Positions 10,039-55,026 of a stretch of 64,000 bases of DNA are shown here, in pieces (position 1 is the stretch's first letter; each line of letters opens with the position of its first letter). The notes beneath the pieces are model-generated. The model searched no databases, had not been told where the DNA came from, and saw only the letters and a list, made by a program, of their open reading frames with translations. Position numbers and translations under genes: made by a program. The stretch spans positions 33,873,668-33,937,667 of the forward strand of contig NC_092569.1 of the NCBI RefSeq assembly GCF_037975245.1, given 5' to 3'. This DNA comes from Apostichopus japonicus (lineage: Eukaryota > Echinodermata > Holothuroidea > Aspidochirotida > Stichopodidae).

Positions 10039-10164
10039 CTAAACTTTAACAGTCACGTCTTTATCGTCAACCTTTGCTGAGGCTGTTTCTTTTTGAGAAT
10101 CTTCACATTTCAGAGTGTCTTCTTTGTCTTGCACAAATCTACTCAGGTTTATACCACGGGCATT
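10039..10164 (-). CDS. Terminal coding exon of TRIM-like gene A1
   Basis: On the - strand a pyrimidine-rich acceptor (TTTTATTTAACAG) is followed by 41 codons and TAG. The peptide begins NARGINLSRFVQDKED and contains CEDSQKETASAKVDDKD; it is acidic and polar with no known domain. Phase 0 matches the donor of the main exon at 11791. The same exon with matching acceptor, length and frame occurs at 41104-41229 and 54901-55026, always just downstream of a TRIM main exon, and is absent only beside B1. Joining gives a protein of 818 residues (777 + 41) with an intron of 1,627 bp. Too short for ordinary ORF calling. No transcript is available, so splicing is inferred. Confidence 0.75.
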   Translation of the reverse strand, partial: NARGINLSRFVQDKEDTLKCEDSQKETASAKVDDKDVTVKV

Positions 10165-11460
10165 CTGTTAAATAAAAGAAAAAGCAACAAAATGATACTT
10201 AAAAAAACCCACATATCTGCATATTTTTCTACTTAAAGTATCAAAATTTTGTCCTCATGCTTATTGCTATCTATCTCACCTTCGAAATGATGGTAACAGG
10301 AGTCGCTCTCATGTAAAGGCTTATTAGATCAATTAATAGAGTAGAGCAATTCTCTGTGATCCAAACGAATATTACAACAGTTTAAGCAACTCTCTACTAA
10401 ATGTGCGAGATTTAATTGCAAATGTGTAATCGATTAATAAAATATATTATTTAATGAATGCCTGCATTTGGTGATTTTAACATCGCATACGCATACGTGT
10501 GTGAACAACTGCTGGGCTACTGCCTTTGACTTGGAAGATTCTGTAAGTAATTTGCAAGTAGAAAATGCATGTATAGTTGAAAATGATGAACAGGTTTGTA
10601 AATACGCACTTGATATTCGTACCTTTGTTATCATGGAACACGAGAACTATATATTTCTAAACGTATATAATTACTTAACTAATGACGTTTATCCTAGCTA
10701 TTTCTATACTCGGAACTATACTCGTAGATTCGTAGGGTTTATACGTCATGAAGTAGGCTATAGGGTCTAAATTTATCAATGAAGATATATTTACTTCATC
10801 ATTACTCACTCTCCACAACCCCTATAGTGTTCGTCCTCGCTTTAGCGATGTTATTTTCAAATTGCGTCATACTCCTTCGAAATCAACCACATTTATTTAC
10901 CTTAGCACTCAGAAAAGATGGTGTCTGGGTAAAATAACTCAATATCAGTGGGCATTTTGTTTTTCAAAACGACTCATTCTTTAATTATAATCCTACCGAA
11001 ATTTATGAATGTAAGGTAAAATAGCTTCAATTGGTCATGCATAGCTTAGTAATTAAAACAGCTTAATAATTTGAAGATAGAGGGGTGGCATAAGGTAACT
11101 TTATAAAGTCCAAACAGTCGTGCATTCTTATTCTTTCAATACAAAATAGATCATTTGCTTAAAACATATCCCTTGGTATACTTCTTACGTTAAATATTTA
11201 CCTGGCTACATGGAATATTTTTAGTGTTACTAATATATTACTATCTAGCGTGATCCCACTGCATTTTATGTTAACTATTATGACCAACACATTATGTAAA
11301 GAGATGGTTAAGACAGCTTTATGTTCTATCATGAAGTTGCAAAATGTTTTCATTAGTTGCTGAAGATATTGATTTATGAATCAGCAATGATGTATGCGGC
11401 CTTACCAAAAGCTTGGCCTAAATGTTTTAACCTCTAGATAATAAAAATAATACAGCCTTA

Positions 11461-11527
<67 letters not shown>

Positions 11528-11791
11528 AATGATAATTTCACTTTTTCCAATAAATCAATTTATTCAATAAATACGGAAATGGTAATTTCATAATGGTGTC
11601 CTCTTGAAGTTAAAAGTGGCGTTTCATCACACACTGTAGCCAATATGCATCCCAGCCTACGCAGCCTATGCCATCTTGTAATTTAGACAAACGTTAGAGA
11701 AGAGGTTGGGTATGTTTTTACTAAGCGTTGCGCACCATGACTTGATAATTTCTACAAAACACAATCGATGTTAATTTAACTAATATCTTAC
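10165..11791 (-). other. Intron of TRIM-like gene A1
   Basis: Bounded by GTAAGA and TTAACAG on the - strand. It contains a (TA)n tract and a + strand exon-like open stretch near 10830-11020 that is frameshifted in this copy. Confidence 0.65.
11464..11524. repeat. (TA)n microsatellite in TRIM intron A1
   Basis: About 30 TA units. The same intronic position holds (TA)n in A2 and B2 and only a short remnant in B1. Confidence 0.95.
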
Positions 11792-14122
11792 CATATAGAA
11801 TGCTGTTAATTCGCCGCGAGGTGTGGCCACCGCTATGCCACCAAATCCCTCCTTTGGAGTAATAGGTGCCATCATGGTGACCTTTACGTCAACTGTAAAC
11901 TCGCTGATAAAGGTTCCTTTTTGGGTATACTGCATAACTACTTTGGGTACATCTTCATCCTCTTCATCGCTTTCTGATGAACCAATGGAAGGAAAAGACT
12001 TCTGACTTTCGTCACTGCCATCTTCGTCTATGTTGTCCATGTTTGAATCGGGAATATTAAGACTTAGCCTTTCCCATAACACGTACACTAAGCCTTGTTG
12101 ATCTGCGCATATTTTCATTGGTCTATCATCGTCGTGTCGGCTGTGATACTGATATAACTGTTCGCCGAGGTCATTAATCGCCACGGCTTTACGTTTTCCA
12201 TCACAAAGGAGAAGATTTCCATCTTTAGAAGATGAGAGCGAAACAGGATGCGCCATATCATCGACCTTAATTGGGATATTTGATATTTCCTCGGCTTGAA
12301 GGTTACACCGATAAAGTGACGTTGTGCCACAGATGCCAACAATTACTTCAAGTGCATCTAACCCTTGCGTGATACATGTAACCTCTGTTTGATTAGTACT
12401 TAGCTCAAAGGGACTGCGCTCGTCTTCCCCGTCATTATCTATATAATATAGGTCTGACGAGTTATTTATGATTGCCACGAGTGAGTCTTCAATAGTATGG
12501 TTCATCTTTGCAATAAGAACCTTTCCCTCTGTGTCCTCAAATGGAAGCTCAAGTGTGTCATAGTTACCAGTTGTTAAAGTGTCCTCTGTTTCTGTATTAA
12601 AAGTGTATACCTCCGCGTTCCCATCGGCAGCAATCGCCAACGTTAGAATATATTTGTCGGAGAAAGCTCTTAGATCAGTAATTGCTTCATCGATACTAGT
12701 AACATGCAATTGATGCCATTCTTCGTCGATGAATGGAGAACGATATAAACCTAGAAAAGAAGACATAGTTTCTTTCATTTCATCTTCGTCGAATTCGCTA
12801 TCCTTTTCTTCGCCGCTGGGGATACTGCCCTTTTCGGAATCTGTCTCACCTTCAGATTCATCGCTCGTACTGCATTCAACTTCAACATCAGATCCGCTGC
12901 TGGGGATACTGCCCTTTTCGGAATCTGTCTCACCTTCAGATTCGTCGTTCGCACTGCATTCAACTTCAACATCAGATCCGCTTTCGTAATCTGAATAGCA
13001 AAAACACTTTGCAAGGTCCTGCCTCATAGAACGTGAGTCATTACGTACCCCTGAACAAGCTGTGAGAAATTCAGGGGCTGTCGAAAGAACAGACCAATTG
13101 TCAGCAGTCTCGGTTAAAACACGAGATGTTTTACAAATATTTTCCACTTTACTTTGAACATTAGTTAGGTATTTGTTTGATTTTTCAATGAAGTGTTTGG
13201 AGAACATCTTTCTAGTGTGAATCTCAAACATAATAAAGTCCTTGCCAGTTTTGAAGATTTGGAGTTTTCTTTCTGCTTTCTGTTTAATCTTCAGTTTCTT
13301 TTCTTTCAGTCTTCTCAAAGCAGATTTCATTTCTTTCTTAATTTTGTCTTTGTGTGCTTCACTGTACTCGTTGACTGTGCTTTCTAGTTTAATGTAATCT
13401 TCCTCAAGTTCTTCAAAAGCTTTTGTTAACAGTGCATCATTGCTTATCCTTTGCCTTATTTTTTTTGTAGAGGATTGAAATTTTTCTTTCATTCTATCGG
13501 CCGCTGTTGAAATTTCTTCAAACTTGTGACCAGGATGATGTATTGGAGCGCACACGGGGCATATCAACTTATCGCATGTTTGACAGCTGATATGCAAAGG
13601 CATGTCCTTGTGAGTAGGACATTTTGGTGTTTTGGATAGAGAAGTCACGGTTTGAGCATTAAATGTTACTGTGCCTGCTTCAATATCTTTTAACGTTACA
13701 AGATGAGTATGAAGTCGTAACATTTTCATCGACTTATGGCATAACATACAATCATTGCAGAGGAAACCACCACAATCAGGACATATCGCCACGACCTGCT
13801 TGGTCGTCTCACACGAACTGCAAATTTGTTTCTTGTGCTTGTCTTTCAGAGTGATCTCCAATTTCCGGCTTTCCAATATAGCTTCCAAGAGAAAATCACC
13901 TTTAAATCCATCGGCTCCACTTTCTGGTACATCTGTCTGTTGTCGACATGTAGGGCAATTGAAAATGGTATCCCTGGTAGCAATCCTATTGACAACTTGA
14001 GACAAACATTTTTTACAGAAGCGGTGAAGGCATGGTAACATTTTAGGCTCTTCCAAAGTATCAAGGCAAATGGAACAAAGTAAGATTTCCTCATCTAAGT
14101 TCGACGGGTTTGCCGTTGCCAT
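11792..14122 (-). CDS. TRIM56-like RING/B-box protein A1, main exon
   Basis: Probable E3 ubiquitin ligase. RING ligands C16, C19, C31, H33, C36, C39, C56, C59; B-box 1 at about 101-140; B-box 2 at 168-199 with the full C-x2-H-x8-C-x2-C-x4-C-x2-C-x3-H-x3-H spacing. A charged coiled coil follows (about 205-365), then an acidic Ser/Glu linker (about 374-450) and a C-terminal region of about 310 residues whose repeated short strands (for example DGNLLLCDGKRKAVAI) resemble the NHL-like propeller of TRIM56. The linker contains a tandem duplication of 28 residues. The ATG sits in a strong Kozak context (CACCATGG). The frame runs three codons past a splice donor (ATG|GTAAGA at 11792/11791) to a TAG at 11780; I take the donor as the true exon end. 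Confidence 0.9.
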
Positions 14123-17100
14123 GGTGAATTTCGATATATATTCTCCTTGAGGTTGACCTGAGTGGTGAGTGAAAAGTTACATCTGAGAGTTTATTTGCAG
14201 TATTAGGTATGTGGTAAATTAGACGCCTGTACAAAGAGGTTTACTTACAGAAATTATTATTCCTTCAAAACCACAATGGTTGTCACATTTTGATGCTGGA
14301 AACATCATTATATGTTGCGACAACGTTTACTTGTTTAGGTTCTTTCGAGAAATGTGGAAAAGGTTACTTAATCAATAGCGTAATATTACAGGGATTTTTA
14401 TTATTTATCTCGTTTTCATTACTTTTTCACCTAGCTATTTATCCGGTAGTTTTAAAATAAAAGTACGTCTTCGCATTGAGAAAGAATATCGCTTTCTTTG
14501 CTATTTTATTCTTAAGATTACTCTTTGACACAATCAACATCTTGAGATTGAAAGTAACAATAAAAAACAATAAAAATAAAAGTCACGAAAGTCACGAAAC
14601 ATTTGCATCAATTTTACACAGTGGGTCAACATTCCAATCAAATGTTGAGGCGATTATTGATACGTCGAAAACATCAACAACAAAATTAGATTATATGACC
14701 CATTCCTATTTAGAGTTTTCAAGGCAATTACATTTGGCAGCTGAAGCAAAACAACAAGCCATTCACCATCAATTGGTCGATCGCCAGCCTACAGCAACGA
14801 ATCGAAGCGGTGCAACCTTTGCCTCGGAGTAAGAGTCCCCATAGGTTAGACTTATTCTGACATGCCTAGAGAGTAAGTGTTTATGTCGGAGGACTAGTCC
14901 TCATAGGTTAGACAGAGGACTAGCCCCCCCCCCCCCCCCTCCATAGGTTAGACTTATTCTGGCATGCCCATAGAGTGTATGTGTTGTGCTTTGTTGTGAA
15001 TGCTGTCATGGTAGTTACAAGAGAGCAATACAATAGAACCCGGCTGTTCGATTATCAATTATTAGTTTGTGGTGAACTTGCTACACTGCTGTTATCATAG
15101 CCTACATGTCCGTTCAAAGAAAGGTCAAAATAATTGACGAAAAATGTTGTTAGTTAACTATAGTTTTAGTTCAGTTCACTAAAACGAAGCAGTCACGATG
15201 AAACTAAAGGTGGGCGTTGTCAGACATTTGGATTTGAGAGGGAGAGGCGCACAGAACAATATTTGATGGTCGTATGCTGAGGGTAGTTCAAGCTGGAGCC
15301 AGGGGCGACAGTGAGAGAGTGGACGCGGGACGAGGGGCACGAGGCGCAAGGCCATACGGGCGTAGGGTCTCTCTAATGGGGGTCCAATGAGGTAAGTCCC
15401 CGTAGGCTCTAAAGTTTCATCGTTTTTCAGAAAAGTATACACAGAGAACTAAGATGATCATAATTGTATGCTAAATGTTGAAAGCCATCTGGGCATCATG
15501 TATTTGACATTTAGATCAAGAAACATTTGATAAGCATCAATGTGTTAGGTATGTTAGGTAAGCATCACAATTTTGCCCGCGTATGATATTCTATGTTTAC
15601 TATACACTAACAAAACCAGCAGTATGAATACCCCATTGCACACATATATCATTCCCTATGAATTAATCCTTTCTATTGTAAAGAATATAACTTAAAAGGA
15701 TCTGTGTTTTTAAGTTGTTTAATTTACTGTACCTACAGATTTTTCAACTTAACTTCCTGTTCAAGATGACGCTTGCTACAGTTCCTGATATGGATTGTCG
15801 GTTGTACTTCCTTGTCTGGTTGTAATGATACAGTACCTTTTTAGATTCCAATGCAGTCATTAAACTTTAAACTGTCGTTTTCAATCGTGTGATAGACCTA
15901 TCTGTAGCCTTTGAACCCACATTAACATTATCGCACTTCACAAAAACTGAAAGAACTTTCCAGAGTACTCATAGTATAGATAGGCATCAATATGTTAGGT
16001 ATGCGTTGCCTTTGCTATTCTATGTTTACTATACACTAATGACACCAGCAGTAGGACTACCGTATAACACGTAATGTACAAACACACTCAATAGAGTACA
16101 CAAAGTGACAAAATATGAATATATTTACTGATTGAAGTTTAGTTCTCTTCGATGTTTGAAGGGTACAAAATGAACCTTCGATAGTTAATGTGGCAGCTGC
16201 AGAGTCATCGTTCGATATCCAACAAGCCAGTAAGGATTTTTTTTTTTATGCTAATACCTCTCTAAACTGTACTCCAATATCACGCTCTCAAAGCACTGGT
16301 ATTGACTGTACACCTGGTTCCTATCCTTGAGCTGATTTAAACATGATATTTGTACTGCTCGTACTGACAATACGAGTGCTCTGAAGCGGAACATGACACT
16401 ATTCAGCTTAGAAACAATTGTCCCAACTGGGTGTAGTCACAAGTCTGGTTTTCTCATGCAACTATATTTTGCGAATCCTGTGGACTATTTGGCACCTTCC
16501 AATCGAATGGGGCAGCGTTGGTGGGTGGGGGATGTCCAGATGATTTTTAGCTAAGATTCTGTCATCTGTGGGGCTAGTTTTCAGTTCGCAGTGCTCTTCA
16601 GCCGTGACGTTTTGGTTTCGCTGGGTGGGTGGGTTTACAAGATTTACTGATTTAATTGGTGTAAGCTGTGTGCAGGGGATTGGTTAGTTTGCTGTTTTGT
16701 GTTTGTTCTCTGTAGGTATTGTTTTTTTCTAAGGTCAGGGCAGGGCGGACGTCACATGGTACCCAGAATGACGTCATACTACAAAACATTCGTCACTATC
16801 ATCAATATTTGGATTTCCGGAATATGTTAATCAGACTAGGCTATGAACGACGTAGGTATCACCTCGAAGGAGAATTTATATCATGTGGATTTTCTAGAAC
16901 AGAATTCCACAAGGAATAAGAATATCGTGGGTAAAAAGCCCGAATCCTGAACGCAACCCCCGAAAAGGATTGTTCTTTCTTGAGGTGTGCTATTTTTTAA
17001 GGAAAAAATACCACAGGTTACATTTACATACAAAAAGGATAAAATGTGGTTTTAATAGACCATAGTTTCATAACGAATAAGAATATTTTGGGTAAAATGC

Positions 17101-20010: not shown

Positions 20011-22498
20011 TTAGCATAATATGTATATAAGTAATTAGAACGAAAGTCTGCAACCAGATGGAACCCAAATTACCATATGTCAAAGGCCATGTGCTATTTT
20101 AAGACGGGAAAGCAATGAATTTCAAGAAACTGTAGCTCCGCCATCCAGCTGACAAAAGCACTTACTGTGGTTTAGACCTCAAGAAAACGTTATCTACAAA
20201 ATAATAAGTCATTTTTTACTGATATTCTATCTATCATTTTTAAAAAATTTCCAAAAGAAAAGAAAAGCGAAAAAAAAATAGTAATACGAGAGATTATAAA
20301 TATGGTTTCCCAAGAACTATTTCCCTCTAATGTGCACTTCAGTTCATGTCGTTTCATACTGGATCTCAATGATTTGGTTTGATTAAGCTCACTTCTCAAT
20401 ACACCTTCATTGCACTCTACCGTTAAAATTGCAGGTAGAATAAAACAAATTAAAATCATAATTTTTCTAAAGTTCGTATTTGTGTTTGTCTGAACATATT
20501 TATTTCAAGTTTTAGGTATTGGTTAGTGGGATCATATCATGTTTTGATTCTGTAACAAAACGAAGGAGTGAAAGCCCTCTCTTATAATACAAAGGCTGCA
20601 TTTTTAATGTTAACATGAATGAATAGATCAAATTAAATTTTTCTTATGTACTATACAGTGCTGAGCCTATAATATATCCATGTTTAAGGAGGTTGGTAGA
20701 AAACAGGAACAGGTTCGGGAGGGGGTAAATCTAAGGTGACGCATAGTTCGAGGAGTGGTACAACAGACTTTGATTTGAGATCCAACAATAAAATTAGATG
20801 GAACCGTTTTGCAAAAGTGGAACCACTGTGTGGTACGTGCTATAAATTTCGATCTTTAAAGGTGTTTCCATTAATTTATTTTGTTTCCCTTAATTTTAAA
20901 ACAACGTTGCACTTTTTTAATTACCCTATTGTTAAGGATTAACAACAGGGTACATTTAGTCCGCAATTCGTCTACATATATTAAAATGAATTTCTTTTGG
21001 TTAAAATAAGTTTAGCGTTCTCATTTGATTACTTTAAGGTTTACTTTAAGCAACAAATTATCATAATTAAAACACCATGCTATCAGTCCGAGTTGTATTC
21101 TCATACAACTTTTAATTAAAAACAAACAAAACATGCATCTCATCTGTAGTTAACTTGATGGGATATACTTAGTCTAGTATACAGACCATTTGTATACGAT
21201 ACATAATTCTTTAGGAACGAAACGTGTATGGTCTCAAACGTCATATTTGCAATTGTATTAAACATTAATGTCATGCAACATTATAGTGATAAATAAATGA
21301 ACCTAGATGCTGACATCAAAGTTACCTAACATGGTTTATTCCAATGGTGTTTCAAATATATAAACAACGTAGTTTGATAAAAAATAGAGGAGTATCAAAC
21401 TATATGTGTTAACTTTAATCTCCTCATAAATACAACAAACGTAATGATATCGTTTATCATGAAAATTGATAACAATAAAAACGTATACATACGTTTATAT
21501 ACCTCTATTAAAGTTAAACTTTGTCCTTGCAACAAATATATTTTAGACCTCTTCATATCAACATCATAAACATGCTACTTTGTAACTTGTAATAGTACTT
21601 GAAAGGGAATAACATTGGTTTAAACACCCGATTCTCATGGCTTTATCAGTTAAAATTGGTAAATGGTGAGTACCTGTTCATCAGATGAAACTGGTTTGTG
21701 TTACAATTTCTTAACATGTGTTACATTTATGACCAGTTGCTACTGAAAAGGACCTATACAAACACAAAAAACTTAACACACAACTATATCCACATAATAC
21801 AAAACAGACTACTCTTAATATAAATATATATGTCCTCACAACATTATTGTGTGGCTAAGATATGAATTTATCAAATTTGGTGGTATTTACATCATTTGGG
21901 AACGGCAGAGTTAAAGATGTCAGACGGTGTTTAATGTAGTTATGAAATTCTAATTACAAAGAACCTTGAAAGTGAGGAACACATTCCAACGGTATCAGGT
22001 TTCAAGGATAAAGCAAGAAGAATTGAGATTATAAAAGAAAAATTGAAAATTTTGCAGACCATTTGCCGTTATGATATTCCAGACCACTTACTCTGATCTA
22101 TTTCTTGGGAGAATCGAAGGTTTAGTCAATGAAAAGATATTCTTCAGTTATGGACAAGATATTGAGATGAGATTACCCAATAAACAGTTATATATAACAG
22201 AATATATGTCCTTCCATATAAGTGTTACATTGTCAGCCACTGGAAAAAAAAAACTTTGAACAAGCAGTAAGTAGTACATTTAGTATGAATTTTGTATACA
22301 TATAAGAGCTAGCAAGATATAAGTATTATATTAATCGTTAGAGGGCAACATTGGTCAATATTAAATCATCCTCGATATAGGATGGAGTAGACGAAGGCCG
22401 CACTTTCCTTTACCGCATGACTGAGAATCTGTGAGTTTATATAATGGTTTATATCGTATTTTACATCATTATGCTCACCCCTTCTCCGTGTCATTCAT
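20011..22498. other. Conserved non-coding stretch of unit B1
   Basis: One copy of the 245-bp repeat near 20070 and the conserved non-coding part of the unit. No gene seen. Confidence 0.5.
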
Positions 22499-22700: not shown

Positions 22701-24259
22701 CATATCTGCATATTTTCTCTCCTTAAAGTAGCGAAATTATGTCCTGGTTATTGACATCTATCTCTACTTACAAATTATTGGTAATGTGGGTCGCTCTCAT
22801 GTAAAGACTTATTAGCTAAATTAATGAGTAGAGCAATTCACTGTGAAATATATTATTTCATATATGCCTTTGTGCATTTGGTGATTTTATACGTGTGTGA
22901 ACAACTGGTGGGCTACTGTCTTTGGCTTGGAAGATCCTGTAAGTTATTTGCAAGTAAATTATGCATGTAGTAGAAAATGATGAACAGGTTGGTAAATACG
23001 CACTTGATATTCGAACTTTGTTATCATAGAACACGAGAACTATATATTTCTAAACGTGTATAATTATTTAACTAACAACGTTTATCCTACTACACTATAC
23101 TCATAGATTCGCTGGATTCTCTGGATTTATGCGTCATGAAGTAGGCAAGAGGGTCTAAATTTATCAATGAATTAATCATATTTACTTCATTATCACTCAC
23201 TCTCCACAACCCCCATATTGCTCGTCGTCGCTATAAGCGATGTTATTCCCAAGTTGCGTCATTCTCGTCCTAAATTAACTACATTTATTTTATATTATTA
23301 CTCAGACATGATGGTGGGTAAAATAACTCCAAATGGGGATTTTGTTCTTCAAGCGACTCTTTTTTCTAATTCTAATTCTACCAAAGTTTCTGAGTGTAAG
23401 TGCATATAGCTTTAATTCGTAATTCACACAAAACATAGCTTAATAATGTAAAGATAGAGGGGTGGCATTGCTTAATATTCACAAATGAGCAGTCAAAACA
23501 GTCACGCATTCTTATTCTTTCAATATAATAACATTATTGTATTAAACATGTCCCTTTATATAATACTAACGTTAAATGTTTACCTGGCTACATGGAATGT
23601 GTTTAGTGTTACAAATATATAACTATATATAACTATGTAGTGTGATCCCACTGCATATAACTATTATAATCAACAGATTATGTGATGAGATGGTTAAGAA
23701 AGCTTTATTTTCTGTCATAAAGTTCCTTGCAAAATGTTTTCATTAGTTGCTGTTGATATTGAATTAAGAATCAGAAATGATGTATGCGGCCTTACCAAAA
23801 TGTTGGCCTAAAATGTTTTAAACCTTTAAATATTAAATAAAGCATTACAATATATATATATATATAGCCTTACAAATTACAAAAAATGAAAAGAAAAATC
23901 AGATTGAAATTTGTATGTTCGATTTGGATTCCCAGAGCGAATTGATAGTATCCTTTTGAAGTTAAAAGTGGAATGTTAAGCTTTTTAACATTGAGATGAT
24001 AATGGCACTTTTTACAATAGATCAATTTAGTCAATGAAAACGAAAACGGTATTTTCATGATGGTATCCTCTTGAAGTTAAAAGTGGCGTTTCATCACACA
24101 CTGCAGCCAACATACATCCCAGTCTACGCAGCCTATGACATCTTGTAATTTAGACAAACGTTAGAGAAGAGGTTGGGTATGTTTTTACCTAAGCATTGCG
24201 CACCATGACTTGATCAATTTTACAAAACACAATCGATGATAAATTAACTAACATCTTAC
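22701..24259. other. Region downstream of TRIM B1 (former intron)
   Basis: Collinear with the introns of the other three genes, with a short (TA) tract at about 23849-23866 and a + strand exon-like frame at 23218-23409. No acceptor plus terminal exon found. Confidence 0.5.
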
Positions 24260-26560
24260 CATATAGAATGATGTTAAATCTCCCCAAGGGGAAGCCACCG
24301 CTATACCATCAAATCCCTCCATTGGAGTAATAGGTGCCATCATGGTTACATTCTCGTCAACTGTAAACTCGCTGATGAAGGTTCCTTTTTGGGTATACTG
24401 CATGACAACGTTGGTTACATCATCTGCTTTAACTTCATCATCATCTTCAACTTCATAATATTCATCCTCTCCATCACTGATACTGTGTTCAAGTGCTTGT
24501 GATATAAACAAGGAAAAAAGTCCAGATTCTTCCGCCTTCTCGTCGCTGCCATCTTTGTCCATGCTGTCCATGTTCAAATCGGGAATATTAATACCTTGCG
24601 TCCTCCACAACACGTACACTAAGCCTTGTTGATCTGCGCATATTTTCATTGGTCTATCATCGTCGTTTCGGCCGTGATACTGATATAACTGTTCGCCGAG
24701 GTCGTTAATCGCCACGGCTTTACGTTTTCCATCACAAAGGAGAAGATTTCCTTCTTTCGTAGATGAGAGAGAAACAGGATGTGCCATATCATCAACGTTA
24801 ATTGGGATATTTGAAATTTCCTCGGCTTGAAGGTTAAACCGATATAGTGTCGTTGTGCCACAGATGCCAACAATTACGTCAAGTGCATCTAACCCTTGCG
24901 TGATACATGTTACCTTTGTTGGATTAGTACTTAGCTCAAAGGAACTCCACTTGGCTTCCCCGTCATTGCCTATGTAATATAGGTCCGACGAGTTTTGTAT
25001 GATTGCCACAAGTGAGTCTTCAATAGTACGGTTCATCTTTGCAATGAGAACCTTTCCCTCTGTGTCCTGAAATGGAAGCTCAAGTGTGTCATAGTTACAA
25101 GTTGTTAAAGTGTCCTCTGTTTCTGTATTAAAAATGTATACCTCCGCGTTCCCATCAGCAGCACTCGCCAACGTTAGAATGTATTTGTCGGAGAAAGCTC
25201 TTAGATCAGTAATTGCTTCATCGATACAAGTAACATGCAATTGATACCATCCTTCGTCGATGAATGGAGAGCGAGATAAACCTGGAAAACAAGACATGGT
25301 TTCTTTCATTTCATCTTCGTCGGACACGCTACCCTTTTCTTCGCTGCTGGGGATACTGCCCTTTTCGAAATCTGTCTCACCTTCAGATTCGTCGTTCGCA
25401 CTGCATTCACGTTCTACATCAGATCCGTTTTCGTTATCTGAATTGTCAAAAAACATTTTAAGGTCCTGCCTCATAGAACTTAAGTCATTAAGTACCCCTG
25501 AACAAGCTGTGAGAAATTCAGGGGCTGTCGAAAGAACAGACCAATTGTCAGCAGTCTCTGTTAAAATACGAGATGTTTTACAAATATTTTCCACTTTACT
25601 TTGAACATTGGTTAAGCATTTGTTTGATTTTTCAATGTAGTGTTTGGAGAACATCTTTCTAGTGTGAATCTCAGAAATAATAAAGTCCTCGCCAGTTTTG
25701 AAGATTCGAAGTTTTCTTTCTGCTTTCTGTTTAATCTTCAGTTCCTTTTCTTTCAGTCTTCTTATCGCCGATTCCATTTCTTTCTTAACTTCGTCTTTTT
25801 GTGTTTCAGTGTACTCATTGACTATGCATTCTAGTTTAATGCAATTCTTCTCAAGTTCGTCAAAAGGTTTTGTAAACACTGCACTATTGCTTATGCTTTG
25901 CCTTAATTCTTCTGTGGAGGTTTGAAATTTTTCTTTCATTCTATCGGCCGCTGTTGAAATTTCTTCGAATTTGTGACCAGGATGGTGTATTGGAGCGCAC
26001 ACGGGGCATATCAACTTATCGCATGTTTGGCAGCTGATATGCAAAGGCATGTCCTTGTGAGTAGGACATTTTGGTGTTTTGGATAGAGAAGTCACTGTTT
26101 GAGCATTAAAAGTGACTGTGCCTGCTTCAATATCTTTTAACGTGACAAGATGAGTATGAAGTCGTAACATTTTCATGGACTTATGGCATAACAGACAGTT
26201 ATTGCAGAGGAAACCACCACAATCGGGACATATAGCCACGACCTGCTTGGTCGACTCACACGAACTGCAAATTTGTTTTTTGTGCTTGTCTTTCAGAGTG
26301 ATCTCCAATTTCCGGCTTTCCAATATAGCTTCCAAGAGAAAATCACCTTTAAATCCATCGGCTCCATTTTCTGGTACATCTGTTTGTTGTCGACATGTAG
26401 GGCAATTGAAAGTGTCATTGATTTTGTTTACAACTTGAGACAAACATTTCTTACAGAAGCGGTGAAGGCATGGTAACATTTTAGGCTCTTCCAAAGTATC
26501 AAGGCAAATGAAACATAGTAAGATTTCCTCATCTAAGTTTGACGGGTTTGCCGTTGCCAT
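24260..26560 (-). CDS. TRIM56-like RING/B-box protein B1, main exon
   Basis: 767 codons to the conserved donor; frame continues to a TAG at 24248 (770 residues ending FYMVRC). Same domain order as A1: RING (with C53 and C56 as last ligands, since the loop is three residues shorter than in A types), B-box 1, canonical B-box 2, coiled coil, acidic linker with one copy of the 28-residue element, NHL-like C-terminal region. All zinc ligands are kept. Before the last segment it carries an extra stretch of about 30 residues (ISQALEHSISDGEDEYYEVE and further acidic residues) not found in the other copies. Its terminal exon is deleted, so the mRNA must either read into the intron and stop after VRC or splice to something else. 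Kozak context is strong. Confidence 0.88.
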
Positions 26561-34346: not shown

Positions 34347-34348
<2 letters not shown>

Positions 34349-41103: not shown

Positions 41104-41229
41104 CTAAACTTTAACAAGCACATCTTTATCGTCGACCTTTGCTGAGGCTGTTTCGTTTTGAGAATCTTCACATTTCAGGGTGTCTTCATTGTCTTGCACA
41201 AATCTACTCAGCTTTATTCCAAAGTCATC
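41104..41229 (-). CDS. Terminal coding exon of TRIM-like gene A2
   Basis: 126 bp on the - strand after the acceptor TTTTATTAACAG: 41 codons and TAG. The peptide begins DDFGIKLSRFVQDNEDTLKC and ends KDVLVKV. Compared with the A1 exon it has seven changes and no indel, and the frame and acceptor are kept. Phase 0 fits the donor at 43842. Spliced product 788 residues (747 + 41), intron 2,613 bp. Splicing is inferred from conservation, not from transcripts. Confidence 0.75.
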   Translation of the reverse strand, partial: DDFGIKLSRFVQDNEDTLKCEDSQNETASAKVDDKDVLVKV

Positions 41230-41879
41230 CTGTTAATAAAAGAAACAGCAACAAAATGATACTTTAAAAAAACCCACATATCTGCATATTTTCTCTCCTT
41301 AAAGTAGCAAAATTATGTCCTGGTTATTGCCATCTATATATCTCTACTTACAAATTATTGGTAATAGGAGACGCTCTCATGTAAAGGCTTGCTAGTTCAA
41401 TTAATAGAGAAGAACATTTTTATGTGATGCAAAGAATACTACAACATTTTAAACAACTCTCTACTTAAGGTGAGCGATTTAATTGCAAATGTGTAATCGA
41501 TTAAAAAAATATACTATTTCATGTATGCCTTTGTGCATTTGACTCTTTTTCTAATTCTTATTCTACTGAAATTTCTGAGTGTAAGTTAAAATAGCTTTAA
41601 TTGGTCAGGCACACAAAATATAGATAATTAATTTGAAGATAGAGGGGTATCGTTGCTTAATGTTCACAAATATACAATCCAAACAGTCATACATTCTTAT
41701 TCTTTCAATATAAATAACATAATTTTATTAAACATGTCTCTTGGTATAATACTTTCGTTAAATGTTAACCTGGCTACATGCAATGTTTTTAGGGTTAAAA
41801 ATACCCACATATCTGCTTATTTTCTCTCCTTAAAGAAGCGAAATTATGTCCTGGTTATTGCCATTTATACAACACCTAA

Positions 41880-42245
41880 TTGTATTCTGGTCATTTGATT
41901 GGTCAATTGCTCGTTGATTGCATGCAAAATTCGCTCTATTCCACTATATGAAATAGAACCATGGGTTATACTTTTTTGGTAGCAATTTTTTCAATGGTAA
42001 GAGAGCAGAGAAACTTGTCTGTTCAAAACAATCTGTTGCATGAGTGCATTTTACCCATCTTAATACAATATGTTGTGTAAAACAAATAATGGTTTCCATT
42101 CGTGCAATAGTGCAAATATTTCATTCGCTGAAAGATGTTATTTGTTCCATTCAACTCGGCTGCGCCTCGTTGCATGGAACATTCCGTCTTTCAACTCATG
42201 AAATATTTGCACTATTGCACTCATAACCATTCATTATTTGTATAC
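41880..42245. mobile_element. Inverted-repeat (MITE-like) insertion in TRIM A2 intron
   Basis: A pair of arms, about 42082-42133 and 42180-42235, share GTGCAATAGTGCAAATATTTC in opposite orientation over about 50 bp. A TATA(C) motif flanks the insertion on both sides. It is absent from A1, B1 and B2. No coding capacity; class not identified. Confidence 0.6.
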
Positions 42246-43379
42246 TATCTCTACTTACAAATGATTGGTAATAGGTGTCGCCCTCGTGTAAGGGCTGGCT
42301 AGCTCAATTAATAGAGAAGAGCAATTCTCTGTGATCGAAACGAATACTACAACAGTTTAAGCAACTCTCTGCTGAATGTGCGCGATTTTAATTGCAAATG
42401 TGTAATCGATTAATAAAATATATTATTTCATGTATGCCTTTGCGCATTTGGTGATTTTACATCGCACACGCATACGTGTGTGAACAACTGGTGGGCTTCT
42501 GTCTTTGACTTGGAAGATCATGTAATTTGCAAGTAGAATATGCATGTAGTTGTTAACATGGAACACGAGAACTGTATATTTCTAAACGTAAATAATTATG
42601 TAACTAACAACGTTTATCCTACTACACTATACTCGTAGATTAGTAGGATTCTTTGATTTATGCTTCATGAAGTAGGCTAGAGGGTCTAAATTTATCAATA
42701 AAGATATCATATTTACTTCATTATCACTCACTCTCCACAGCCCCTATAGTGTTCGTCCTCGCTATTAGCGATGTTATTCCCAAGTTACGTCATACTCCTT
42801 CTAAATCAACCACATTTATTTATCTTATCACTCAGAAAAGATGGTGTCTGGGTAAAATAACTCCAAATGGGGATTTTGTTTTTTTCAAAAAGACTCATTT
42901 TTTAATTATAATCCTACCGAAATTTATGAATGTAAGTTTAAATTGGTCATGCACACAAAACATAGCTTAATAATTTGAAGATAGAGGGGTGGCATAGCTT
43001 AATAATGTTTACAAATATACAGTCCAAACAGTCATGCATTCTTATTCTTTCAATACAAATAACATAATTTGATTAACATGACTCTTGGTATAAATACTTA
43101 CGTTAAATGTTTACCTGGCTACATGGAATAGTTTTAGTGTTATAAATATATTACTATCTAGTGTGATCCCACTGCATATTATGTTAACTATTATGATCAA
43201 CACATTATGTAATGAGATGGTTAAGAGAGCTTTATGTTCTATCATAAAGTTGCTTGCAAAATGTTTTCATTAGTTGCTGTTGATATTGATTTATGAATCA
43301 GCAATGGTGTATGTGGCCTTACCAAAAGCTTGGCCTAAAATGTTTAAACATCTAAATATTAAAATAATATAGCCTTACA

Positions 43380-43388
<9 letters not shown>

Positions 43389-43435
<47 letters not shown>
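43389..43435. repeat. (TA)n microsatellite in TRIM intron A2
   Basis: About 24 TA units between two TAGCCTTACA phrases, the same site as in A1 and B2. Confidence 0.9.
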
Positions 43436-43437
<2 letters not shown>

Positions 43438-43842
43438 CCTTACAAAAAAATTTCCGCAAAATAAAAAAAATTCTAATTTCACTTTGGATGTTCAATTTGG
43501 ATTTCCAGAGCGTATAATAGTATCCTCTTGAAGTTTAAAGTAGCGTTCTTGGGAATTTTTAAACTTCTAAACATTGAAATCATAATTTCACTTTTTTCAA
43601 TAAATCAATTTATTCAATAAATTCGAAAATGGTAATTTCATAATGGTATCCTCTTTAAGTTAAAAGTGGCGTTTCATCACACAATGTAGCCAACATGCGT
43701 CCCAGCCTACGCAGCCTATGACATCTTATAATTTAGACAAACGTTAGAGAAGAGGTTTGGTTTGTTTTGACCTAAGCGTTGCGCACCATGACTTGATAAT
43801 TTCTACAAAACACAATCGATGTTAAATTTACTAACATCTTAC

Positions 43843-46083
43843 CATATAGAATGCTGTTAATTCGCCCCGAGGGGTGGCCACCGCTATGCCATCAAATCCC
43901 TCCTTTGTAGTAATAGGTGCCATCATGGTGACCTTTCTGTCAACTGTAAACTCGCTGATCAAGGTTCCTTTTTGGGTATACTGCATAACTACTTTGGTTA
44001 CATCCTCTTTATCGCTTTCTGATGAACCAATGGAAGGAAAAGACTTCTGACTTTCGTCACTATCATCTTTGTCTATGCTGTCCATGTTCGAATCGGGAAT
44101 ATTAATACCTTGCGTCCTCCATAACACGTACACTAAGCCTTGTTGATCTGCGCATATTTTCATTGGTCTATCATCGTCGAGTCGGCCGTGATACTGATAT
44201 AACTGCTCGCCGAGGTCATTAATCGCCACGGCCTTACGTTTTCCATCACAAAGAAGAAGATTTCCATCTTTCGTAGATGAGAGAGAAACAGGATGCGCCA
44301 TATCATCGACGTTAATTGGGATATTTGATATTTCCTCGGCTTGAAGGTTACACCGATAAAGTGTCGTTGTGCCACAGATGCCAACAATTACTTCACGTGC
44401 ATCTAACCCTTGCGTAATACATGTAACCTCTGTTTGATTAGTACTTAGCTCAAAGGAACTGCGCTCGTCTTCCCCGTCATTATCTATATAATATAGGTCT
44501 GACCAGTTATTTACGATTGCCACAAGTGAGTCTTCAATAGTATAATTCATCTTTGCAATGAGAACCTTTCCCTCTGTGTCCTGAAATGGAAGCTCAAATG
44601 TGTCATAGTTACAAGTTGTTAAAGTGTCCTCTGTTTCTGTATTAAAAGTGTATACCTCCGCGTACCCATTGGCAGCACTCGCCAACGTTAGAATATATTT
44701 GTCGGGGAAAGCTCTTAGATCAGTAATTGCTTCATCGATACATGTAACATGCAGTTGATACCATTCTTCGTCGATGAATGGAGAACGAGATAAACCTGGA
44801 AAACAAGACATGGTTTCTTTCACTTCATCTTCGTTGTACTCGCTATCCTTTTCTTCGCTGCTGGGGATACTGCCCTTTTCGGAATCTGTATCACCTTCAG
44901 ATTCGTAGTTTTTACTGCTTCCACTTTCTACATTAGATCCGCTTTCGTTATCTGAATTGTTAAGACATATGTTAAGGTCCTGCCTCATAGAACTTAAGTC
45001 ATTAAGTACCCCTGAACAAGCAGTGAGAAATTCAGGGGCTGTCGAAAGAACAGACCAATTGTCAGCAGTCTCGGTTAAAACACGAGATGTTTTGCAAATG
45101 TTTTCCACTTTACTTTGAACATTGGTTAAGCATTTGTTTGTTTTTTCAATGTAGTGTTTGGAGAACATCTTTCTAGTGTGAATCTCAGACATAATCCAGT
45201 CCTTGCCAGTTTTGACGATTCGGAGCTTTCTTTCTGCTTTCTGTTTAATCTTCAGTTCCTTTTCCTTCAGTCTTCTCAAAGCAGAGTCCATTTCTTTCTT
45301 AATTGCATCTTTTTGTGTTTCAGTGTACTCATTGACTGTGCTTTCTAGTTTAATGTAATCCTCCTCAAGTTCTTCAAAAGGTTTTGTAAACACTGCACTA
45401 TTGCCAATGCTTTGCCTTAATTCTTCTGTAGAGGTTTGAAATTTTTCTTTCATTCTATCGGCCGCTGTTGAAATTTCTTCAAACTTGTGACCAGGATGAT
45501 GTATTGGAGCGCACACGGGGCATATCAACTTATCGCATGTTTGACAGCTGATATGCAAAGGCATGTCCTTGTGAGTAGGGCATTTTGGTGTTTTGGATAG
45601 AGAAGTCACGGTTTGAGCATTAAATGTTACTGTGCCTGCTTCAATATCTTTTAACGTTACAAGATGAGTATGAAGTCGTAAAATTTTCATTGACTTATGG
45701 CATAACAGACAGTCATTGCAGAGGAAACCACCACAATCGGGACATATAGCCACGACCTGCTTGGTCGACTCACACGAACTGCAAATTTGTTTCTTGTGCT
45801 TGTCTTTCAGAGTGATCTCCAATTTTCGGCTTTCCAATATAGCTTCCAAGAGAAAATCACCTTTAAATCCATCGGCTCCATTTTCTGGTACATCTGTCTG
45901 TTGTCGACATGTAGGGCAATTGAAAATGGTATCCCTGATAGCAATGTTGTTGACAACTTGAGACAAACACATTTTACAGAAGCGGTGAAGGCATGGTAAC
46001 ATTTTAGGCTCTTCCAAAGTATCAAGACAAATGGAACAAAGTAAGATTTCCTCATCTAATTTCGACGGGTTTGCCGTTGCCAT
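43843..46083 (-). CDS. TRIM56-like RING/B-box protein A2, main exon
   Basis: 747 codons to the donor (ATG|GTAAGA); open frame continues to TAG at 43831. RING ligands C16 to C59 as in A1, with the longer A-type loop (NNIAIRDTIFNC); B-box 1; canonical B-box 2 (C168 to H199); coiled coil; a shorter acidic linker (one copy of the 28-residue element, with a diverged start rich in Ser/Asn); NHL-like C-terminal region ending AVATPRGELTAFYM. Probable cytoplasmic E3 ubiquitin ligase. The intron to its terminal exon is larger than in the sisters because of the insertions at 41.5-42.25 kb. Strong Kozak ATG. Confidence 0.9.
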
Positions 46084-49642: not shown

Positions 49643-49894
49643 TTAATCTTCTGAATCGCTATCATTACTGTCGCCTAGAAAGTCATCACAATCATTATCT
49701 AGAAACAGTTTTTGCACATCGAAGTCTTCCATAACCTTCTCGGGCCATCTCAGCTCTAGTGATTCTCTCCATCCATTGTCAACAATGTTTCCAGCTTCAT
49801 AACTACTTACGATCGCTGAGCGCCATTCTCTAGCAATGAAGTTTGATCTAATAAGGATAATATAGATTTGGAATGGGCTAATGTATATGGTCAC
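49643..49894 (-). CDS. Unrecognised ORF with acidic segment, second copy
   Basis: 83 codons matching the first part of the ORF at 17314-17859 (same REWRSAIVSSYEAGNIVDNG segment and acidic DSNDSDS run). It ends at a TAA that coincides with the possible splice donor (TAA|GTAAGC). Near-identity may only reflect the recent block duplication, so it is weak evidence for selection. Confidence 0.3.
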   Translation of the reverse strand: MTIYISPFQIYIILIRSNFIAREWRSAIVSSYEAGNIVDNGWRESLELRWPEKVMEDFDVQKLFLDNDCDDFLGDSNDSDSED

Positions 49895-50239
49895 AACTTC
49901 GACCTCTTTTCTGTTATGATACTGTAGAGCATTACCCCTTGTTACTGTAAAGCATTCATGTTTGTTATATGGTTGATATTAAGTGGCGCCATTACGAACT
50001 ATGTTTAGATCCCACGATGCAATATTACACGTTTTACTAGTTGCCATGGTCACCGGAATTGCCAACCTTTTCATGAGCTGGTATGCTTCTAGAGTTGTAG
50101 CCATATGTCAGTAGACATGTCGATTTATCGTGTATTATGTGACCTGAGGAACCAATGAGGTCGTCTCGTTAAAATGTTAGCAAAGACTTTAGCATGTCTT
50201 TAGCTCTATAAGTCATCCCATTAATTTGTGCAGATTACA

Positions 50240-50362
50240 TCTGACCAGATATAGCGGATAGGCTAGGTGATCACATACCAGATATAGTGGATAGGCTAGG
50301 TGATCACATATAGTCTCAGGCCAGATATAGTGGATAGGCTAGGTGATCAGATATAGTCTCTG
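50240..50362. repeat. 43-bp minisatellite, 3 units (B2)
   Basis: Three units at the position paralogous to the five-unit array in B1. Confidence 0.75.
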
Positions 50363-51223
50363 CTTTGCAGCCTATTGCTCGACATAAGGGTGTCAGTTAG
50401 TTGACAAGGCAACCTGTAGTCTAAGTCAGTACTTATGCATTGTTGAAGTAGTCATGCAGAGTAAAAGTTTGTTCTGGAACTAGTGCAACCAGCACCTAGT
50501 TATTGTATGAGTAACCTCTCTCGGGTGGTTACCCATGGTGGGGTACCCCAGGGTGACCGGAATTCCATGACTGTGGGAGGGGTCAAGACTTTTCTGTGTA
50601 TGTGGGGTTAGGGTGTGTCATAGTGTGCATCTAATTATGTGTCAACAATTCCTCCTAAACGGCTAATTTTCTTCAAACTTGGTGGGTAGGAACTCCAGGG
50701 TAAACACATGTGTCTTGAAGAGATGTTAGAGGTTAAAGGTCAAATTTAGTTAATCTCGAATGAAGATCTTAATCCATTAAAATTTGTCCTTTGTGAGTAC
50801 TCAGTGGTCAGCTGTAAGTTAAGATATGTGCACATATTCTTGTAATCGTCGTGATTTTTAACTATACAGTATTCTTCTCATATAGCACTTATGGAGAAAC
50901 AATGAGTTTTCTACGAGGAAAAAGCGGAATTCTGATTCAGCTATAAGGGAACATTTTAATGAATTTTCAATGCCAATGAAGGTTTACGGTTAGTAAAGGA
51001 TTTCATACTGTCGAGGTTTTTGAGAGAGAGGTGCTGTAGAATCAATAGGAGCACAGCACTAACTGATTGTTGCGAATGCGGTAGACTTTAATAAACAACT
51101 ATACATATTTTTTAAATGAGGTTGTTATTGTTTTATTAAACCAATACGGACGAAACATGCTGACCGCGCAAGAAAGTCGAATGAAACATTACGACAATTA
51201 ATTGCTGTCTGCGCTCCTCGCAG

Positions 51224-52056
51224 ATGCCTCGTATTTCTTTTACCAACAACCTGGATATGCGAGAGATTGTAAGGATGTCTTTGAACAATGTGACGAGGAG
51301 TCGTCTGAGAGGGGTCTACCTCATACAGCCTGACGGATATATGGAACCATTTGCTGTTAACAGTAACAACCCTATAAATGAAGGAGGCTTGCTGGATGGT
51401 ATACATTACTTTATTATAACATCTGATCTCTGCATGATCACCATTAGACTATGTGAATTCAAAGTATTTCGGAGACATACTTTTGAGAACCGAATAGATT
51501 CATTTGTTACTTGCTAATTACATCAAAACAAATTTTTATAAAAATAGGATGACTAAATTTTGCATATAAAACGGTATTTGTATTGTTCCAGAATAGTTAG
51601 AGAGTTAGATAATAGTCAACCGTGAGCAAATTAAACAAGGATTGTACTGCCACGTGACTCTAAATATGGATAGAAACACTAAGAAATTCAAGTGCATGGA
51701 AATGATTTACAAAAAAAAAATTAAGTAAATGTTGATTTGCACAAGATATTCAAGTGAATGATGATTTTCACAATCCTCAATGCCTAGCAGAAAGTTGGCG
51801 TGATAGTTACAAATCTCTGTTATCAATATTGTTTATTTTCATGACAGGTTACGATGCTTGCCAACCAATAGAGGAATGGCTTTCTCAACAAGAGATCGTG
51901 ACAATGAACGTTGGACTTCTCTCAGCGCTGATTAGTATAAAAACGGCTGGTGAATCAAGACTGTTCTCACGCTCTTCCGAACTTTTCCGTGGATTGATGG
52001 CCCGCCCTCATTTGTATAACTTTCCTGGTGGTAATCACAACATCCAACTTATATAA
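51224..52056 (+). pseudogene. Fibrinogen-related (FReD) pseudogene fragment, B2
   Basis: Begins after a CAG acceptor with ASYFFYQQPGYARDCKDVF, so it lacks the TAA of the A copies; this is the least decayed N-terminal part. One extra base near 51308 shifts the frame before GVYLIQPDGYMEPFAVN. In the second part a small indel at about 51859 and stops (TAG, TGA) break STRDRDNERWTS...YKNGW. Another stop falls in the terminal IQLI-IKIRP segment. A 97-residue open frame at 51224-51517 joins the wrong frame before the lesion to the right frame after it, so it is not a real protein. Confidence 0.75.
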
Positions 52057-54608
52057 ATAAAGATACGGCCTTTGTTATGCCACAATATTCGATTCTGGAT
52101 AGCTTAGCATAATATGTATATAAGTAATTAAAACGAATGTCTGCAACCAGATGGAACCCAAATTACCAAATGTTAAAGGCCATGTGCTATTTGAAGACCG
52201 GGAAACCAATGAATTTCAAGAAACTGTAGCTCCGCCCTCCAGCTGAAAAAGCACGTATTGTGGTTGAGACCTGAAGAATACATTATCTCCAAATAATAAA
52301 TAATTTTCAACTGAAATTCTCTTTAGCATTTTTATTGACATGTACTAGATATTAAAAATTTTCCAAGAAAAAAGAAAAGCGAAAAAAAGAAAAGTAATAC
52401 AAGAGCTTCTCAATATGGTTTCCCAAGAACTATTTCCCTCTAATGTGCACTACAGTTCATGAAGTTTCGTATTGGATCTCTATGATTTGGTTTGATTAAG
52501 CTCAATACACCATCATTGCACTCTACCGTTATTATTACAGGTAGAAAAGGTAGAAAATATTAATATAATAATATTTCTAAAGGTCGTATTTGTGTTTGTC
52601 CGAACAAGTTTAGGTATTGGTTAGTGGGAAAATATCATTTTTTTGATTCTGTAACAAAAAGGAGTGAAAGCCCTCCCTTAAAATATAAAGGCTGCATTTT
52701 TAATGTCAACATGAAAACTTGAAGACTTGTGTACTATACAGTGCTGGGCCTATAATATATCCATGTTAATGGGGGGGGGGGGTTAGAAAACAGGAAGGGG
52801 TTCGGGAGAGTGGTAAATCTAAGGGGACGCATAGTTCGAGGAGTGGTGCAAACAGACTTTGATTTGAGATCCAAACAACAGAATCATATGAAACCGTTTT
52901 CAAAAGGGAAACCTCTGTGTGTTACGTGCTACAAATTCCGGTCTTTAAATGTGTTGCCCTTAATTTTACAACAACGTTGCACTTTTTAATTACCCTATTG
53001 TTATTGGATTAACAACAGGATACATTTAGTCCGCAATTAGTCTACATGAAATAAAAAGAATTTCTCTTGTTTAAAATAAGTTTAGCGTAATATTTATATC
53101 TCATGATGTCTCATTTGATTTCAAGGATTACTTTAAAGATAACTTTAAGCATCAAATTATTATAATTAAAACATATGCTGCTAGTCCGAGTTGTATTCTT
53201 ATACAATTTAAATAAAAAACAAACAAAACATGCAGCTCATCTGTAGATAACTTCATGGGCTATACTAAGTCTAACACACAGACCATTTGTATACGATAAA
53301 TAATTCTTTAGGAACGAAACGTGTATGGTCTCAAAAGTCATGTTTGCAATTGTATTAAACATTAATGTCATGCAATATTTTAATGATATTTACATGAATC
53401 GAGATGCCGACATCAAAGTTACCTAATATGGCTTATTCCAATGGTGTTTCAAATATATAAACTACGTACTTTGATGAAGTAGTATCAAACTAGATGTGTA
53501 AACACTACTATCCTCATAAAAACAACAGAGTACGTAATGAAATCGTTCATCATGAACATTGATAACAATAAAATCGGATACATACGTATAGACACGTCTA
53601 TTAAAGTTAAACTTTGTCCTTGCAACAAAATATAATTGTTTTAGGGCCTCTTCATATCAACACCTTACACATGCTACTTTGTAACATGTAATTGTACTTG
53701 AAAGGGAATAACATTGGTTTAAACACCCGATTCTCATGGTTTTATCAGTTAAAACTGGTAAGAGGTGAGTACCCGTTAATCAGATGAAACTGATGTGTGT
53801 TACAATTTCTTAACATGTGTTACATTTATGACCAGTTGCTACTGAAAAGAACCTATACATACACAAAATACTTAACACACAATTATATCCACATAATACA
53901 AACCAGACTACTCTAAATCTCAATGTTTATGTCCTCACAATATTATTGTGTGGCTAAGATATGAATTTATCAAATTTGGTGGTATTTACATCATTTGGCA
54001 GACGGCAGAGTAAAGATGGTAGACGGTGTTTAATGAATTCATGAAATTCTAATTACAAAGAACCTTGACAGTGAGGTTTCAAGGATACAGCAAGAAGAAT
54101 TGAGATCATAGAAGAAAAATGGAAAGTTTTGAAGACCATTTGTCGTTATGGTATCCCGCACCACTTCTATTCTATGATCTATTTTTAAGGAAAATCGACG
54201 GTTTAATCAATGAAAAGAAGTTACAGCCAATCGGCCAGTTCTTCAGTTACGGACAAGATATTGAGATGAGATTACCAATAAACAGTTACATATAAAATAC
54301 AATATGTCCTTCCATATATGTGATACATTGTCAGCCACTGGAAAAAAAAAAACATTGAACAAGCAGTAAGTAGTGCATTTTGTATGAAGTGTCTTTTCAC
54401 TATTTTATAAATGAAAGAGCAAGCAAGAAATAAGAATTATTCATTACTAGAGGGCAACATTGGTCAATATTAAATCATCCTCGATATAGGATGGAGTATA
54501 TTATGGTCACAGTTTCCTTTATCGATTGACTGAGAAGCTGTGAGTTTATATAATGGTTAATATGGTCTTTTACATCATTATGATCACCCCTTCTCCGTGT
54601 CATTCATT
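52057..54608. other. Conserved non-coding stretch of unit B2
   Basis: One copy of the 245-bp repeat and the shared non-coding DNA of the unit; G run near 52770. No gene. Confidence 0.5.
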
Positions 54609-54871
54609 ACGAGTTCAACCTCATTAGCCCTCACTGGGTATAACACCCCCCCCCCCCCCCAAATAGATGATGATATCCGGGTATCTCGTGATCTACGAAG
54701 AAACCAACGTTGCTTTCCGTTTCTTTGCTAATGAAGCAGCTGCAGCAGTAATATACCTTACAAAAGAGTTTAATGAGTAAGATAAGGAAGAGAGATTTTT
54801 TTTTTAAGATCGTAGATCACGTTTTTCTTTCCGGGTATAAACCAAGTGAGCGCTCACCAGGTTGAACTCGT
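54609..54871. repeat. Long inverted repeat in TRIM 3' flank (B2)
   Basis: Left arm from 54609 (ACGAGTTCAACCTCATTAGC), right arm about 54809-54871, again just beyond the TRIM stop codon (54901-54903). A C run of about 14 interrupts the left arm near 54650. Confidence 0.7.
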
Positions 54872-54900
54872 AAGATAAGTCATCGTCATTAAATAACGTC

Positions 54901-55026
54901 CTAAAGTTTTACAATCAGGTCTTTATCGTCCACCTTTGCTGAGGCTGTTTCGTTTTGAGAATCTTCACATTTCAGAGTTTCTTCCTTGTCTTGCACAAAT
55001 CTACTCAGCTTTATGCCATAGTCATT
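54901..55026 (-). CDS. Terminal coding exon of TRIM-like gene B2
   Basis: 126 bp after the acceptor TTTTATTTAACAG: 41 codons and TAG. The peptide begins NDYGIKLSRFVQDKEETLKC and ends KDLIVKL. It keeps length, frame and acceptor relative to the A1 and A2 exons although A and B types split before the block duplication, which is the best evidence that this exon is under constraint. Spliced product 770 residues (729 + 41), intron 1,765 bp. Confidence 0.78.
   Translation of the reverse strand, partial: NDYGIKLSRFVQDKEETLKCEDSQNETASAKVDDKDLIVKL

Follow-up and report, generated by a model that had tools for sequence, protein, structure and literature searches.

Where do the proteins of a tandem TRIM-like gene cluster end? 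The window analysed here, a 64-kb stretch of the Apostichopus japonicus genome (contig C9, positions 33873668-33937667, of a 671.6-Mb, 35-contig assembly that all genome searches covered), holds four such genes in tandem on the minus strand, genes 1-4, with long open frames of 780, 770, 750 and 732 codons. In keeping with an echinoderm source, the COX1 gene of this genome, on contig C35, shows its expected conserved residues when translated with genetic code 9, in which AAA is Asn and ATA is Ile; that code is a mark of echinoderms and also of flatworms. The original prediction held that in three of these genes the long frame runs past a splice donor just before its stop, and that the last coding exon is a short one lying farther on. 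Our analysis makes it highly probable that genes 1, 3 and 4 each possess, in a stretch of 126 nt, a genuine last coding exon. The case is built from sequence: the anatomy of the exons, the strength of their splice sites, their coding constraint, the presence of homologous exons in distant relatives, and a deletion in gene 2. From these features we infer that transcripts use the junctions. A phase-0 splice would join the large exon to its small partner and put a 41-residue C terminus in place of a short read-through tail, VR[Y/C/G]. A gene model based on the long frame would then miss the real C terminus, as had been proposed, a view supported by a ratio of nonsynonymous to synonymous change (dN/dS, or omega) of 0.29 in the exon and by the homologous exons of diverged relatives.

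Anatomy and coding constraint of the terminal exon

The three genes are laid out alike on the minus strand. In gene 1 the main coding exon (11792..14122) encodes a RING, a B-box and a propeller-like half and ends in ..LTAFYM at the donor; a predicted phase-0 intron of 1627 nt (10165..11791, GTAAGA...TTTAACAG) would connect it to a terminal exon (10039..10164) of 41 codons and a TAG stop, NARGINLSRFVQDKEDTLKCEDSQKETASAKVDDKDVTVKV. The corresponding parts of gene 3 are a main coding exon at 43843..46083, a putative phase-0 intron of 2613 nt (41230..43842) and a terminal exon at 41104..41229, again 41 codons and TAG, DDFGIKLSRFVQDNEDTLKCEDSQNETASAKVDDKDVLVKV. Those of gene 4 are a main coding exon at 56792..58978, a putative phase-0 intron of 1765 nt (55027..56791) and a terminal exon of 41 codons and TAG at 54901..55026, NDYGIKLSRFVQDKEETLKCEDSQNETASAKVDDKDLIVKL. 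The donors at 11792, 43843 and 56792 all read ATG/GTAAGA (the slash marks the exon boundary), and the long frames stop three codons on, after VRY, VRC and VRG. Each terminal exon lies where it had been placed, is 126 nt long and in phase 0, ends in TAG and has no internal stop. The claim that all three share the same acceptor holds only in part: the acceptors are near-identical and not identical, being TTTATTTAACAG/A in genes 1 and 4 and TTTTATTAACAG/G in gene 3.

Splice sites were scored with simple consensus weights that were not fitted to this genome. By this measure the exon acceptors rank first among the 170, 224 and 171 AGs found between the donor and a point 1.5 kb beyond the exon in genes 1, 3 and 4, respectively, and all three fall within the top 0.06-0.11% of the 7001 window AGs scored. 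Their donors rank within the highest-scoring 1.05% of the 7536 window GTs.

Comparison of the three copies requires some care. Self-comparison of the window reveals repeated units of about 12-18 kb, with an overall block offset, by reading, of about 31-32 kb. Because the units are this long, the introns and flanks of the tandem genes have been duplicated too, and likeness between copies is therefore, by itself, no evidence of function. The pattern of change across codons is more informative. At least 21 changes are found in the 123 columns of the window exons, 5 of them at first, 4 at second and 12 at third codon positions (one-sided P = 0.021), and a codon model fitted to the three copies returned the omega of 0.29 quoted above (likelihood ratio test, p = 0.023), in line with the constraint expected of a coding exon. 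Codons 4-36, a stretch chosen after inspection of the data, give an omega of 0.05, and 8 of the 17 variable exon columns make up one unbroken third-position run (P = 0.0005 under random placement). The same comparison, applied to the final 320 codon columns of the long frame, gives 0.85, which is not different from 1. As a control we took aligned non-coding 123-nt windows from the same three copies, with both strands counted for stops. Indel-free control windows numbered 93 of 2613 in the intron and 175 of 2638 in the 3′ flank; windows stop-free in all three copies numbered 6 and 7, and these overlap, representing about three separate stretches. A third-position excess like the 12 of 21 seen in the exon occurred in none of the 13 stop-free windows, the nearest having 6 of 13.

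Homologous exons in diverged relatives

Stronger support than the omega of the window exon comes from homologous exons in relatives whose proteins are only about 32-41% identical. The nearest is a fifth family gene (g0), whose first third lies at window positions 1..726 on the minus strand and whose remainder lies to the left of the window on C9; it matches the window genes at 32% identity in its N-terminal part and 41% in its C-terminal part. Its 730-codon frame ends FHM/GTAAGT and then continues through six read-through codons. About 4.0 kb from this donor is a candidate homologous exon of 25 codons, NGYGEMLTKFVLERETAEECVETKI followed by a stop (approximately C9:33868131-33868208, minus strand, placed from offsets), whose AG is the best of 295 downstream AGs both by acceptor score and by peptide match. 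Its match score is 33 against 15 for the next best, a value reached by 1 of 100000 shuffles.

The most telling result, and one that we treat as an independent replicate, comes from a cluster on contig C3 with about 37% identity to the window genes over the N-terminal half. Three of its genes (L010, L012 and L013) end CY[V/Q]R followed by GTAAGG or GTAAAG, and in each the exon TEYGRHLTSL[M/I]RTAEERTTESM.. sits 0.85-1.0 kb beyond the donor. These exons are the best peptide matches among 212, 255 and 202 AGs, with scores of 15, 15 and 17, and their acceptors rank 1, 2 and 2; for the L010 exon, 110 of 100000 shuffles score as high. In their first 22 codons (66 columns) the three copies show just 3 changes, each at a third position. 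The surroundings are far more diverged: of the 66 columns that precede the exon, 51 are ungapped and hold 24 changes, and of the 66 that follow the stop, 58 are ungapped and hold 15. The sole indel among the exons is a 3-base, in-frame insertion in L012. Non-coding DNA set between diverging flanks would be unlikely to preserve both a reading frame and its sequence. The exons of this cluster and of the adjoining gene are 25-28 codons long, and the donor falls at the same protein position as in the window genes. A genome search with the C3 peptide found six copies, all on C3 and two of them with an internal stop, and searches with the window exon matched only the window's own three. Exon copies in the genome thus come to ten: three in the window, one adjoining it and six on C3, two of which carry a stop.

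Several observations weigh against the conclusion that these are coding exons. The window exon has changed at a rate of 0.171 per column, no lower than the aligned intron (0.166) or the 3′ flank (0.147), and therefore raw similarity between copies is no evidence for it; the codon pattern is. The first AATAAA or ATTAAA beyond the exon stop is 1077 nt away in gene 1, compared with 71 nt in gene 3 and 127 nt in gene 4. In two of the C3 genes the peptide match only narrowly exceeds that of the runner-up AG (15 against 13 and 14; the third has 17 against 11), and the end of the C3 exon is looser than its beginning, with 3 changes in the 18 aligned columns past the insertion, stop included, none of them at a third position. 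Finally, past the first ten or so residues, the tails of the exon do not line up between the window genes, the adjoining gene and the C3 cluster.

Gene 2 and the history of the exon

As predicted, the exon is present in three of the four window genes, and gene 2 (24248-26560) is without it through a deletion. The main coding exon of this gene (24260..26560, minus strand) retains the donor ATG/GTAAGA, and its open frame continues to 24248, ending ..FYMVRC and a stop. At the deletion junction (22660/22659, minus strand), some 251-257 bp present in genes 1, 3 and 4 are missing, with TTA or TAA at both breakpoints; the loss takes 7-8 bp of the acceptor, the whole exon and 118-123 bp beyond it. The best acceptor remaining between the gene 2 donor and gene 1 has a score of 6.0, at 20549, and lies five codons before a stop. 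Gene 2 is not obviously dead, since its long frame is intact and its pairwise dN/dS against the other window genes is 0.38-0.45, and it provides a natural comparison in which the exon has been removed.

A wider set of 24 loci (L010-L033) yielded 17 genes whose C-terminal end could be read; L016 and L033 belong to a single gene, L028 was read from its second piece, and L011, L014, L015, L025, L029 and L030 were left out because their frames are broken or short. By eye, a donor-like GT[A/G]AG or GTAAAG stands at the homologous place in 9 of the 17 and is absent in 8, among which L018 and L032 have a bare GT without donor consensus. Exonless relatives end where the exon would begin, with termini such as ..YRYGLA and ..YTYGLLLK. 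A gene of the same genome that we take, from its repeats, to be LIN-41/TRIM71-like ends ..NNRVQAF, directly after its last C-strand-like segment. Because this gene and 8 of the 17 relatives end at that point, the exon is probably a clade-specific extension, gained at the C terminus in one clade that would comprise the window cluster, the adjoining gene and the C3 cluster, with a later deletion in gene 2. In a 20-row tree, a branch supported at 100/100 has the exon-bearing genes, together with gene 2, to one side of it. A second NHL gene (L049/L050, C14:5706221-5708162) has a less clean end: its long frame stops nine codons past ..RIQVF, and another NHL repeat match follows after about 1.2 kb, in a 50-aa frame of its own, possibly because here too an intron interrupts an NHL repeat at strand C.

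It is unlikely, in our estimation, that the exon is ancestral to the whole family and has been lost many times. In favour of this history are five relatives on C1 and C10 (L019, L020, L021, L022 and L027), all of which carry a strong donor-like CTG/GTGAGT at the homologous place. No homologous exon was found behind the three that were searched, L019, L020 and L021, within about 4.0, 9.5 and 7.1 kb downstream, a situation like that of gene 2, which shows that loss occurs. The DNA right after the donor-like site is conserved among these genes and resembles a 3′ untranslated region, and we read them as exonless; the exon may have been lost from them, may lie further away, or may never have been there. 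Their donor-like sites are the main loose end of the analysis. They speak against a simple single gain. The tree should be read with caution, since the program flags long-branch joins as risky. It can be added that, of the two canonical NHL genes, the one on C14 may be interrupted by an intron at about such a place. Against repeated loss stand the LIN-41/TRIM71-like gene, which ends exactly where the exon would start, the placement of all exon-bearing genes on one side of one branch, and the limited distance to which the C1/C10 search reached.

We also think it rather improbable that two forms of each protein are made, with intron retention giving a canonical-length product, splicing giving an extended one, and the exon acting as a regulated C-terminal switch. 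The read-through ends, such as that of gene 2, do resemble the natural termini of exonless relatives, and each of the three introns contains AATAAA or ATTAAA; however, poly(A)-like hexamers are common in AT-rich DNA. The read-through stop, moreover, is not conserved, following the donor by 3 codons in the window genes, 6 in the adjoining gene, 15 in L010 and about 30 in L012 and L013. Very improbable indeed is the idea that the long frames end at their own VR[Y/C/G] stop, as canonical NHL proteins do, and that what follows is 3′ untranslated sequence kept alike by recent duplication: the equal divergence of exon and flank, the fact that the LIN-41/TRIM71-like gene, like 8 of the 17 readable relatives, ends at this point without donor consensus, and the intact main frame of exonless gene 2 would all suit it, but it is contradicted by the third-position pattern and omega below 1, by exons behind best or second-best acceptors in relatives too diverged to share non-coding DNA, and by conservation of the C3 exon between diverged flanks.

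Protein context and comparison with known systems

Returning to the coding exon, what would it add to the protein? All four window genes encode a RING (PF00097, E 1.1e-9 to 2.3e-10) and a B-box (PF00643, E about 4e-7), both above the Pfam cut-off, with further B-box-like matches (PF22586) below it. The full proteins appear to consist of these two domains, probably a coiled coil, and a propeller-like C-terminal half. In PDB profile comparisons a window protein matches TIF1-beta over profile positions 14-307, and over the RING the window genes match TRIM3 and TRIM2 best, and one relative TRIM56 and TRIM2. The C-terminal half gave a single PDB match, to an unrelated chain with E = 2.5, which we took as chance. 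By eye, this half consists of repeated strand pairs and can be divided into six sets of strand-like segments. The exon junction comes directly behind the segment that resembles the third strand of the last unit; its sequence in gene 4 is GGIAVATPYGNLTAFYM/NDYGIKLSRFV. Local alignment of the junction finds its best match among the internal units in GKRKAVAINDLGEQLYQY or the like for genes 3 and 4, and in KGTFISEFTVD for gene 1.

The likeliest role, although we put it at somewhat less than even odds, is that the conserved first residues, G-x-x-L-x-x-[F/L], supply an outer strand to the last propeller blade and that the rest forms a flexible, charged tail. Three results limit the support for this proposal. 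Alignment of the exon as a fourth strand, D, is not significant against shuffled exons, 405, 1052 and 137 of 5000 being as good for genes 1, 3 and 4. An AlphaFold2 model of the long frame without the exon, built from 4 sequences, predicts strands at low confidence and gives no trustworthy fold (mean predicted local distance difference test score, pLDDT, 38.4). No Pfam match to NHL repeats (PF01436) appears in the window proteins at E <= 1, a range in which the filters drop most matches above 0.1. An account of the Mei-P26 NHL propeller (PMC9070667) describes its first N-terminal strand as complementing the sixth sheet. Because NHL propellers such as this one are closed by a strand from the N terminus, the exon is dispensable for the protein. 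A still more speculative scenario, and a doubtful one, is that capture of a 3′ exon in one clade moved propeller closure from the N-terminal 'velcro' to a C-terminal strand with a variable charged tail, that the gene 2 deletion reverts this change, and that splicing or loss of the exon re-models a putative substrate-recognition edge.

The family to which these genes belong is large: a protein search of the same genome matched at least 68 family stretches (61 of 491 first-look candidates were scored), and no relatives were confirmed in prokaryote and viral collections. The C-terminal half of this TRIM-like family evolves fast. Among genes 1-4, the RING/B-box columns 1-200 are constrained (segment omega 0.21 and 0.08) and columns 201-600 are nearly neutral (0.79-0.90), a combination that resembles families with a diversifying recognition domain. 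In gene 1, an 84-bp unit, a multiple of three, is repeated twice in the acidic linker (window 12811-12982) and accounts for much of the extra length of that gene. At the opposite end of the genes, a likely acceptor, CACCACTCAG/GTCAACC or nearly so, occurs at window 14157 (minus strand) and at the matching place in genes 2-4, about 35 nt before each ATG, which suggests a 5′ untranslated intron in each of genes 1-4; two of the C3 relatives likewise have a strong acceptor shortly upstream of the ATG. Elsewhere in the window there is a tandem array at 6932-7610 (247-bp unit, 2.8 copies, 94% matches) and, at 60391-64000 on the plus strand, a retroelement of the type without long terminal repeats that continues past the right edge, with a reverse transcriptase domain (PF00078, E 2.4e-31) and a weak endonuclease match below cut-off; the frame at 60391-61653, ahead of the reverse transcriptase domain, has no Pfam match at E <= 0.01.

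Neither the exon nor this TRIM-like family in echinoderms was found described among the listed titles and abstract starts of the searchable literature, which included few subscription journals, and the exon is apparently undescribed in detail. Its significance lies mainly in gene-model accuracy, as models of these genes drawn from the long frame would carry a wrong C terminus; it also marks one clade of a large family with a fast-evolving C-terminal half. The closest known systems are the TRIM-NHL proteins (TRIM2, TRIM3, TRIM56 and TRIM71/LIN-41), with which the window proteins share a RING, a B-box and, by eye, a C-terminal half of strand pairs. In the literature on the family, TRIM2, 3, 32, 45, 56 and 71 are grouped together as subfamily C (PMC3503706), and TRIM56 is said to resemble an NHL domain without clear repeats (PMC2533329). 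Unlike TRIM-NHL proteins, those of the window have no listed Pfam NHL match, and they would carry an extra terminal exon past the point at which the LIN-41/TRIM71-like protein ends. Their six sets of strand-like segments recall, again by eye, the six-bladed propeller of Mei-P26 with its N-terminal 'velcro', whereas in the window proteins the exon is a candidate to provide, from the C terminus, the last blade with its outer strand. In its structure, with a phase-0 intron bounded by GT and AG, a length of 25-41 codons and a stop inside, the exon is like the short last coding exons of ordinary spliced genes and differs from them in nothing of kind: it would be a short last exon, of ordinary gene structure, in a large TRIM family.

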